The position numbers and the translations under genes are program-made. A DNA stretch of 6,616 nt. Source: Ignavibacteria bacterium (GTDB lineage: Bacteria > Bacteroidota > Ignavibacteria > Tepidaquicellales > Tepidaquicellaceae). Numbering within the stretch: the first letter of the stretch is position 1; each line of letters opens with the position of its first letter. Shown piece by piece: positions 5,308 to 6,616 of this stretch. The notes beneath the pieces were generated by a model. It was not told the DNA's origin. It searched no databases and saw only the letters and a list, made by a program, of their open reading frames with translations. The stretch is from the NCBI GenBank assembly GCA_018058125.1, contig JAGPCH010000088.1, positions 1 through 6,616 of the forward strand. Direction: 5' to 3'.

Positions 5308-5586
5308 TCAATTGTCTTTCACATCTTTAAGAAGTTCGCGGGCATATTCTGCATCATCCGGCATGACCCTGAATTGTACGGGACCTGTTATGGGATTAAA
5401 ACCCGTTCCGAGTATACCTACTCCGAAGAGATCCTGCACACCTTCTCCTTTTGCAAGATATCTGATTTGCGCTTCATCCAGTATGGATTTTACTACTGCG
5501 ATTATTCCCTCATGACCTGTTTCAAAAACCGTAACAAGTCTTTCGTGATCTTCCTTTTCCTGCTGATCTTTTTGTTCCTGATTCAT
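5308..5586 (-). CDS. DUF2007 domain protein (putative signal-transducing protein)
   Basis: This 92-residue protein has a highly charged N-terminal tail (residues 1-16, rich in Q, E, K and D) followed by a DUF2007-like domain. The pattern LVTVFETGHEGIIAVVKSIL (17-36), DEAQIRYLAKGEG (37-49) and VQFRVMPDDAEYARELLKD (70-88) fits this ACT-like beta-alpha-beta fold, named putative prokaryotic signal-transducing protein; its ligand is unknown. No signal peptide or membrane helix is present. The start is ATG at 5584-5586, backed by GGAGG ten bases upstream. This is the first gene after the transposase locus, 116 bp from it, and probably leads a short operon with DUF4199 and LOG. Confidence 0.82.
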   Translation of the reverse strand: MNQEQKDQQEKEDHERLVTVFETGHEGIIAVVKSILDEAQIRYLAKGEGVQDLFGVGILGTGFNPITGPVQFRVMPDDAEYARELLKDVKDN

Positions 5587-5596
5587 AAATTTTTTT

Positions 5597-5601
5597 CCTC
5601 C
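5597..5601 (-). promoter_or_regulatory. Ribosome-binding site of the DUF2007 gene
   Basis: GGAGG on the minus strand lies 10 nt before the ATG at 5584-5586. It is the only strong Shine-Dalgarno sequence found before a gene in this window. It fixes the start and suggests this gene heads its transcription unit or is translated more efficiently than its neighbours. Confidence 0.7.
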
Positions 5602-5640
5602 AATCTTTGGATTTCAATTCAATTTATCAATGCAGATTTT

Positions 5641-5668
5641 CCGTTGGCTAAAGCCAACGGGAATGAAT
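5641..5668 (+). repeat. Single REP-like palindrome with trailing GAATGAAT
   Basis: Perfect 9-bp arms CCGTTGGCT (5641-5649) and AGCCAACGG (5652-5660) flank the centre AA, followed by GAATGAAT (5661-5668). The outer bases, the AA centre, the arm length and the tail all match the palindrome in the 50-bp array on the other side of the transposase gene, in the same orientation. It lies about 40 bp past the transposase stop codon. There is no T run after the stem on either strand, so a terminator role is possible but not of the standard type. Confidence 0.82.
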
Positions 5669-5702
5669 ATTAGAAATTTATTTTTTAAAAAAACATACTG
5701 GA

Positions 5703-6140
5703 TTATTTATCTTTTATAATTTCCCAGCCATATCTATTTATGAATTCATCTATTTCACATTCAAATGATCTCTTGGAATGATGTGATTCCTGATATTTAA
5801 TATATTTCATGACTCTTTCGACATGTGATTCACTTACAGAAACTGTAAAGTAGTCATCCTGCCAGGAGAATTTGTCCAAAGTTAGATTGTTATTATTAAT
5901 CCAGAATGATGATTCGCCTTTTATATGTTGTACAACATTTGATATTGTTTGTTGTTTTCCTAAAGAGATGAGGCAGTGTAAATGTTCTGTATATCCGTTT
6001 ATAGATTGCAGGAATATATTTTTTTTTGAACAATTTTCTATAATATGTTGCTGAACACGATATCTGATATTGTTTGTCAGTAATGGCAGTCTGTACTTTG
6101 TGGCAAAAACAATATGTACCCAGATCCTTACATATGACAT
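5703..6140 (-). CDS. tnpA: IS200-like Y1 HUH transposase, REP-associated (RAYT) type
   Basis: This 145-residue protein is a complete single-domain Y1 transposase (IS200/IS605 TnpA superfamily). Such enzymes cut and join single-stranded DNA next to hairpins through a covalent 5'-phosphotyrosine link. The N-terminus WVHIVFATKYRLPLL (7-21) is typical. The HUH metal-binding pair is H53 and H55 in EHLHCLISL (52-60). The catalytic tyrosine is most likely Y113, four residues before Q117 in YIKYQ (113-117), matching the Y-x3-Q arrangement of IS608 TnpA. The following HHSKRSFECEIDEFI (120-134) resembles single-copy REP-associated transposases. No frameshift or missing key residue is seen, so it is probably active. 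The start is ATG at 6138-6140, with a weak AAGAG about 6 nt upstream. The gene begins 26 bp from the 50-bp repeat array, so its promoter must lie in or next to the array. A plain IS200-like copy is the alternative, but the palindromes on both sides favour the RAYT reading. Confidence 0.92.
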   Translation of the reverse strand: MSYVRIWVHIVFATKYRLPLLTNNIRYRVQQHIIENCSKKNIFLQSINGYTEHLHCLISLGKQQTISNVVQHIKGESSFWINNNNLTLDKFSWQDDYFTVSVSESHVERVMKYIKYQESHHSKRSFECEIDEFINRYGWEIIKDK

Positions 6141-6166
6141 AATATTCTCTTTAATTATTTATTAAT

Positions 6167-6616
6167 CCCGTCCTATAAATGGGACGGCAATGAATTTTTC
6201 CTTCACTTTACTTTGTCCCGTCTCATAAATGGGACGGCAATGAATTTTTCCTTCACTTTACTTTGTCCCGTCCCATAAATGGGACGGCAATGAATTTTTC
6301 CTTCACTTTACTTTGTCCCGTCCCATAAATGGGACGGCTATGAATTTTTCCTTCACTTTACTTTGTCCCGTCCCATAAATGGGACGGCAATGAATTTTTC
6401 CTTCACTTTACTTTGTCCCGTCCCATAAATGGGACGGCAATGAATTTTTCCTTCACTTTACTTTGTCCCGTCCCATAAATGGGACGGCTATGAATTTTTC
6501 CTTCACTTTACTTTGTCCCGTCCCATAAATGGGACGGCAATGAATTTTTCCTTCACTTTACTTTGTCCCGTCCCATAAATGGGACGGCAATGAATTTTTC
6601 CTTCACTTTACTTTGT
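6167..6616 (+). repeat. Tandem array of nine 50-bp palindrome-containing units, open at the right edge
   Basis: Units begin at 6167, 6217, 6267, 6317, 6367, 6417, 6467, 6517 and 6567. Each has a 21-bp head containing 9-bp arms CCGTCCCAT and ATGGGACGG around AA, then a 29-bp linker running from CAATGAAT through a pyrimidine-rich stretch to CTTTGT. Only four differences occur: C to T at unit position 8 (unit 1, 6174), C to T at position 7 (unit 2, 6223), and A to T at position 23 in units 4 and 7 (6339, 6489). The linkers are otherwise identical, so this is a minisatellite-like array and not CRISPR. The unit is not a multiple of three, and stop codons occur on both strands. The array occupies the region upstream of the transposase gene; the 26 bp between them (6141-6166) are A/T-rich. 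I see no other gene in it. Confidence 0.95.

Follow-up and report, generated by a model that had tools for sequence, protein, structure and literature searches.

Are the palindromes on either side of a transposase gene in a draft genome of an Ignavibacteria bacterium the substrate of the enzyme encoded between them? The window analysed here, 6,616 nucleotides in length, is the entire contig C359 of a 2.3-Mb assembly (468 contigs, 67% complete). An initial annotation had placed a single palindrome with its tag (5641-5668) and an array of the same palindrome family (6166-6616), in the same orientation, on the two sides of an intact Y1 HUH transposase gene, and had proposed a RAYT with an amplified REP substrate. 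The layout and the gene were confirmed (Table 1), while the attribution to RAYT was not supported. From comparison with related loci, we consider it probable that the palindromes are the cognate REP-like repeats of the flanking Y1 transposase, which is predicted to bind, cut and spread them.

Table 1. Transposase gene and palindromes in the window (positions from the first nucleotide of the contig)
Feature	Position	Strand	Remarks
Y1 HUH transposase gene, 145 aa	5703..6140	minus	PF01797, NCBIfam IS200, alignment, AF2/Foldseek
Single palindrome CCGTTGGCTAAAGCCAACGG	5641..5660	plus	20 nt, 8-bp stem, loop TTTA on minus strand
Foot/tag GAATGAAT of single palindrome	5661..5668	plus	On the minus strand, that of the gene, ATTCATTC precedes the hairpin
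Tandem array of nine 50-bp units	6166..6616	plus	TRF, period 50, 9.0 copies, 98% matches; stops at contig end
Array hairpin 1 CCGTCCTATAAATGGGACGG	6168..6187	plus	Sister palindrome of the single copy
Array hairpins 2-9	Starts 6218, 6268, 6318, 6368, 6418, 6468, 6518, 6568	plus	Every 50 bp; consensus CCGTCCCATAAATGGGACGG
Foot/tag CAATGAAT of array copy 1	6188..6195	plus	Recurs with the 50-bp period; copies 4 and 7 have CTATGAAT

The transposase gene and the palindromes of its genome

The reading frame of the transposase is intact. Its HUH motif is H53-L-H55 (codons 5984-5976), and its catalytic tyrosine is likely Y113 (codon 5804-5802), which lies in the motif YIKYQESHH, that is Y---Q--HH (Y113..Q117..H120 H121). 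The protein scores 93.3 bits with PF01797 and passes the NCBIfam IS200 model (70.3 bits, cut-off 55). Both tests that define a RAYT gave a negative result: the NCBIfam model NF047646 (REP_Tyr_transpos) stopped at 28.6 bits, below its cut-off of 80, and the Y---NP motif of class 2 RAYT/TnpAREP proteins is absent from the transposase, which has Y---Q instead. The TnpA proteins of ISDra2 and IS608 could be aligned with it, the tyrosine region included, and they are also the best Foldseek matches of its AF2 model (pLDDT 78.3), in which search the TnpAREP structure 4er8 ranks 30. With its Y---Q--HH motif, a length near 148 aa and a low copy number, the transposase fits Y1 subclass 1.2. Two divergent Y1 genes (93.7 and 70.8 bits) were detected in the 67% complete genome, in which several near-identical gene copies of the IS200/IS605 type were not seen. 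No tnpB was found among the eight window ORFs scanned, the sequence beyond the array lying outside the window. The second, divergent Y1 gene (L027:4100-4606, contig C143) has short AT-rich palindromes on both sides, CCGTTTTAACGG and CCGTTTAAACGG, without the ATTCATT tag; they resemble the AACCGTTTCAACGGTT hairpins near loci L151-L155.

When folded as single-stranded DNA, the window palindromes form 8-bp stems with a TTTA loop on the gene's strand (folding z of -4.7 to -6.3). The single copy and the array hairpins, with the gene between them, are tagged on the same strand. Since the plus strand reads hairpin and then a tag of the AATGAAT type, the gene's strand has ATTCATT[G/C] before the hairpin. 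Nine array units are present, as annotated, but they are near-identical (98% matches) and not identical, and their number is a lower bound because the window is the whole contig and the array reaches its end. One arm change each distinguishes copy 1 (CCGTCCTAT) and copy 2 (CCGTCTCAT), and the proposed formula with a [G/C]AATGAAT tag fits seven of the nine copies, failing in copies 4 and 7.

Contig C72 of the same genome terminates in four further copies of the array unit, in a compatible direction, followed by unique sequence and a gene that by its sequence we take to be transketolase-like. In the congener G240, a single contig carries the left block of the window and the C72 gene, separated by about 2.6 kb that contain no Y1 gene; the two other genes found there are presumably cydAB-like. 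As the window block and the C72 gene are near each other in G240, C72 is likely the other end of the window array. The alignment of G240 with the window breaks off at the palindrome. At a same-genus locus (L253:4799), the alignment with the window ends exactly at the palindrome (5638-5641) and other genes lie beyond, so that the palindromes may mark rearrangement borders.

The further copies that the annotation had proposed to look for were found. In the window's own genome, the pattern ACGGSNATGAAT was matched 22 times and its reversed form once; on visual inspection, 20 of the 22 matches are parts of hairpins and the other two seem fortuitous. When up to two mismatches are allowed, CCGTTGGCTNNAGCCAACGG occurs at 15 sites on six contigs, and its control at none. 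The palindromes are therefore in low copy in this genome (15-22 pattern matches). A second kind of array occurs on contig C57 (L026:1590-2390), where a 203-bp tandem of 3.2 copies with three palindromes per unit lies between two genes.

Hairpins at related transposase loci

Related genes were collected by scanning named genomes with a 16-row alignment, and the best 80 of 189 relatives were used; the scan relied on two conserved peptides and therefore favours close kin. These 80 were supplemented with 40 loci taken from the listed matches of one family, with 29 from the class to which the window belongs, and with the window itself and the second Y1 gene; removal of two duplicates left 149 loci. 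All counts below come from loci that are related by descent, as their conserved gene places indicate, and are not independent. In the 80 named loci, palindromes with a stem of at least 8 bp and a loop of 2-4 nt were counted in 350-bp bins. The first 350 bp upstream of the gene contain them in 62 of 78 loci, and the first 350 bp downstream in 23 of 80. The second upstream bin holds them in 17 of 76 loci, and from the third bin onward they occur in 0-4 of 65-80 loci per bin. Overall, 105 of the 149 loci have a palindrome within 400 bp of the gene and 44 have none. The nearest downstream hairpin is inverted in 38 cases and direct in 14; that of the window is direct, unlike those of most relatives.

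Palindromes near the gene share a common centre. TTYA (TTTA or TTCA) is found at the centre of 297 of 318 palindromes near the gene (266 kb) compared to 15 of 58 far from it (627 kb), and TTYA or its complement at the centre of 255 of the 256 two-nucleotide-loop palindromes of the 149 loci. Palindromes of this type are present in 66 of the 80 named loci, 10 of the 18 loci L143-L160 and 27 of the 29 window-class loci; none was found beside the genes of the 20 loci L161-L180, which share the Y---Q--HH motif, the palindromes at L167 being of another kind. In a strict count, 217 of 267 palindromes of the 149 loci have a perfect 9-bp stem, that is 8 bp plus the T-A pair bounding the TTYA loop. The hairpins are also polar: a TTG foot stands on the strand with TT or TC in the loop in 145 cases compared to 6 on the other strand, and 81 of 256 feet read CATTG. 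A GTAG or GTGG foot 0-2 nt from the hairpin was found in 0 of 256 cases at the related loci, in agreement with the annotated difference from GTAG-type REPs.

Of the 149 loci, 82 have a second, smaller hairpin of fixed sequence, GGCTTYAGCC, about 22 nt beyond the main hairpin on its far side. It accompanies 149 of 278 hairpins, compared to a mean of 0.01 (maximum 1) for shuffled flanks, 11 on the tag side and 3 on the opposite strand. Perfect stems of at least 7 bp do not occur among these 149 mini-hairpins, though some, for example in L087, resemble imperfect large hairpins. A full end in the relatives thus reads ATTG, main hairpin, about 22 nt, GGCTTYAGCC. With a somewhat looser motif, the gene is bracketed by two outward-pointing ends in 18 of 149 loci, and the bracketed unit measures 547-559 bp in six among the 12 listed. 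Many scattered pairs that point outward have the same ends: all five pairs with perfect stems carry the second hairpin, and among the 13 pairs 40-110 nt apart that are counted once imperfect stems and a slightly looser motif are admitted, it is present on both sides in eight, on one side in four and on neither in one. The double-hairpin pattern, with the stem left unconstrained, occurs in 58 of 245 genomes of the class compared to 0 for the reversed control. Among the matches listed, taken once per genome for 35 of the 58 positive genomes, 6-8 of the 8 stem positions pair in 33 of 35 although 26 different left arms are represented. The pattern has no match in the window's genome, where the elements are of the single-hairpin form. 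At 18 loci (for example L060, L072, L074, L079, L095 and L097), the transposase gene is preceded by a GGC-TTYA-GCC hairpin (stem of 5-7 bp) whose end lies 8-15 nt from the start codon, where it might hinder translation.

Arrays also recur beside the gene. Tandem arrays that bear palindromes lie within 700 bp of it at 19 of 151 loci, or 18 of 149 without duplicates, and none was found elsewhere in the 149 loci. The window array has the most copies among them, and the number of units differs, by eye, between the close Mucilaginibacter loci L087 and L097.

Lineage, dispersal and competing explanations

A tree of 119 transposases, from which the 29 class loci were left out, was compared with palindrome type as given by the outer stem bases. 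All 58 rows with CCGT or CAGT palindromes, the window included, fall in one clade of 78 rows (SH-aLRT 98), in which 13 rows are without palindrome and 7 have another type; outside it the types are CCAC, CTCC and CCCC. The proteins of L161-L180 lie near the base of the tree in more than one branch. Palindrome labels change 25 times on this tree compared to at least 42 times in 200 shuffles. Many forks are unresolved and the rows share descent, so the tree supports, but does not prove, that palindrome type goes with transposase lineage. Inner stem bases vary even inside one genome (G011), with the opposite arm changing to match.

Palindromes and gene also tend to occur in the same genomes. Among 151 genomes of one family, CCGT palindromes are present in 9 of 12 with a gene of at least 200 bits and in 8 of 139 without; in the class, a gene at E≤1e-40 was found in 59 genomes, 34 of which have the double-hairpin pattern, as do 24 of the 186 others. 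Fisher P values for these counts treat the genomes as independent, which they are not. The strict double-hairpin pattern is missing from 25 of the 59 gene-bearing class genomes. Conversely, no gene reaches E≤1e-40 in 24 of the 58 genomes with the pattern, and in eight of these no Y1 match was obtained even at 1e-20. The proposed link between palindromes and transposase holds in part: the same palindromes flank the same transposase in relatives, but two genomes of the window's genus have palindromes and no close gene. G240 (97% complete) has 10 palindrome matches at 7 sites, and G267 (96% complete) has 3, one of which is not palindromic; in the latter, a contig breaks off within palindromes at the corresponding position, so that the gene may simply be missing from the assembly. 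Within the window's class but beyond its genus, the CCGT pattern gave mostly non-palindromic single matches, near the control level.

In the relatives, the repeats answer to the description of REPs: they are short palindromes, present in many copies (CCGT-type matches in 16 of 24 genomes, up to 116 per genome, a site tagged on both sides counting twice) and extragenic, with 74 of 76 copies outside ORFs and 2 inside in 40 regions (77% coding) of three genomes. The expectation that copies lie between genes is thus largely borne out. The genes that flank them are unidirectional in 44 cases, convergent in 20 and divergent in 10, and palindromes within 150 nt of each other form 19 outward, 10 inward and 8 same-direction pairs. 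The listed places among the 116 matches of Adhaeribacter soli (G016) belong mostly to an imperfect hairpin type, CCGTCAGCTAAAGCAGACGG, which flanks the gene there as well. At L104, three of the four elements that flank the gene are of the imperfect hairpin type common among the places listed for that genome.

The gene itself seems to move little. The same neighbour gene, which we take from its sequence to be pgi-like, stands beside the transposase in 17 of 25 Mucilaginibacter loci, and another, presumably addB-like, in 17 of 19 Pedobacter loci, as expected of a gene that stays in place within a genus. At one orthologous site, several palindromes are present in each of two Mucilaginibacter genomes and none in a third, and at another, one genome has a pair where others have a single palindrome. 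Exact insertion borders were not found when sites were compared in three Mucilaginibacter genomes, and a locus scan for palindrome insertions between near relatives yielded three candidates, of which none was cleanly bordered. L099 and L100 differ by 160 bp at a place that resembled an empty site, but the difference lies inside another gene and is not a palindrome element. A palindrome cluster at L214:809-1536 occupies a site that is empty in a third species; the sequence just after it resembles, in our reading, a TPP riboswitch.

These observations have to be weighed against other accounts of the palindromes. They could be bystanders, moved by another enzyme or inherited with the locus and found near the gene through a conserved neighbourhood, as the constancy of the gene's neighbours within Mucilaginibacter and Pedobacter, the two congeners without a close gene and the 24 double-hairpin genomes without one would allow. 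Yet the neighbours differ between the two genera and palindromes are present in both, palindrome type tracks the transposase tree, and TTYA palindromes are missing at the related Y---Q--HH loci L161-L180, which together make this account rather improbable. The locus could also hold a standard IS200/IS605 insertion sequence in which the hairpins are subterminal, the other copies being its relics; the IS200 model score, a predicted fold nearest to ISDra2 and IS608 TnpA, and the outward ends that bracket the gene at 18 loci, in units of near-constant length in six of those listed, all fit such an element. What makes it distinctly improbable is that the window's genome has two divergent Y1 genes and not several alike, that the place of the gene is conserved in most loci of two genera, that palindrome matches far exceed close gene copies in the genomes compared, and that the scanned window ORFs include no tnpB.

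Transcription terminators, or RNA hairpins that are alike by chance, would likewise be intergenic and hairpin-forming, and the orientations of the flanking genes, mostly unidirectional or convergent, would suit them. However, no T-run directly follows the hairpin on either strand (the 3' flank is A-rich on the tag strand and reads CAATGA on the other), the stem varies while loop and foot stay, and no Rfam family reached its gathering score in 5500-6616 (best 23.6 bits, compared to 60). Intrinsic terminators are lowered by this flank composition, and we hold the explanation to be highly improbable. A sub-threshold psRNA14 match at 5633-5700 was taken as chance. As for the array, it could be an artefact of assembly or have arisen by neutral slippage and so be irrelevant to the enzyme: it stops at the contig edge, and slippage produces tandem repeats anyway. 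We regard this as unlikely, given that C72 also ends in the window's array with a unique flank of its own, that palindrome arrays lie by the gene in 18 distinct loci and nowhere else in the 149, and that unit number differs by eye between L087 and L097.

A probable REP-like family with its own transposase

In sequence, the hairpins are centred on the gene, polar in strand, co-varying in their stems, scattered between genes and locally arrayed, and the best reading of the window is as an amplified case of a REP-like family with its own transposase. By analogy with TnpAREP and IS608, the transposase would bind the palindromes as folded single-stranded hairpins, and Y113 would cut near the ATTG foot, guided by it, the DNA being rejoined elsewhere. 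Such cutting and rejoining could spread the hairpins into the gaps between genes. The scattered copies would be internally deleted derivatives of the gene-bearing unit, and within a genus the enzyme gene would have stayed at a single chromosomal locus as its ends spread. Repeated local copying, by the enzyme or by replication slippage, would have produced the array of the window. More broadly, a Y1 lineage across many Bacteroidota and their relatives may read a two-part single-strand code, made of a lineage-typed hairpin with ATTG foot and TTYA loop and of the invariant GGCTTYAGCC, with a fixed gene whose ends have become mobile gene-less repeats amplified locally; the window would then be an extreme, simplified case. 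We would defend and doubt this wider proposal in equal measure.

Known systems resemble the family in part. TnpAREP was described as acting on one strand, using foot and loop, and having co-evolved with its REPs (Corneloup et al. 2021, PMC8266576), and GTAG and CGTC families were described by Di Nocera et al. 2013 (PMC3733652). Like the TnpAREP/RAYT genes with GTAG REPs of E. coli, Pseudomonas and Stenotrophomonas, the gene studied here encodes an HUH-Y1 enzyme and adjoins hairpins which also occur, in pairs and clusters, in other intergenic places and which have a strand-specific foot on their 5' side. In contrast to class 2, which is defined by Y---NP (PMC6006769), the present proteins have Y---Q--HH, and their hairpins have a TTYA loop, lack a GT[AG]G foot and are accompanied in relatives by a second, invariant mini-hairpin. 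With IS608 and ISDra2 of the IS200/IS605 family they share the fold, the HUH motif and tyrosine, a guide-like stretch 5' of the hairpin and, in relatives, hairpins on both sides of the gene. They differ in that the gene is not multi-copy and keeps its place in most loci of two genera, that gene-less copies dominate and that relatives have two hairpins per end. The inverted pairs of extragenic palindromes recall REPINs and BIMEs, from which they are set apart by foot and loop, by the four-hairpin layout of 8 of 13 wide outward pairs and by the direct orientation of the window copies.

With subclass 1.2 of Quentin et al. 2018 (PMC6006769), described as IS200-like proteins without IS properties, the present proteins share Y---Q--HH, a length of about 148 aa, low copy number and kin in Bacteroidetes. 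Table 1 of that study gives the subclass the motif YIKNQKEHH and the REP entry 'no', whereas we counted palindromes within 400 bp of the gene at 105 of 149 loci; the automatic REP search it describes demanded a GTAG or GTGG foot. The Y---Q--HH proteins of our sample divide into one part with hairpins and another (L161-L180) without this type. No account of REPs for this group was found in the literature searched (RAYT, REPtron or REPIN in Bacteroidetes/Bacteroidota; subclass 1.2), a search outside which most subscription papers and preprints lay, and the sole match to the palindrome strings was, by its title, on another subject.

A substrate candidate with a fixed loop, a foot and, in relatives, a second hairpin gives the subclass 1.2 Y1 proteins a testable role. 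The arrays, confined to the side of the gene in the loci examined, make local amplification directly testable as well. Our results suggest that pairs of REP and transposase also emerged outside GTAG/class 2, and that other such pairs escape a search bound to GTAG.
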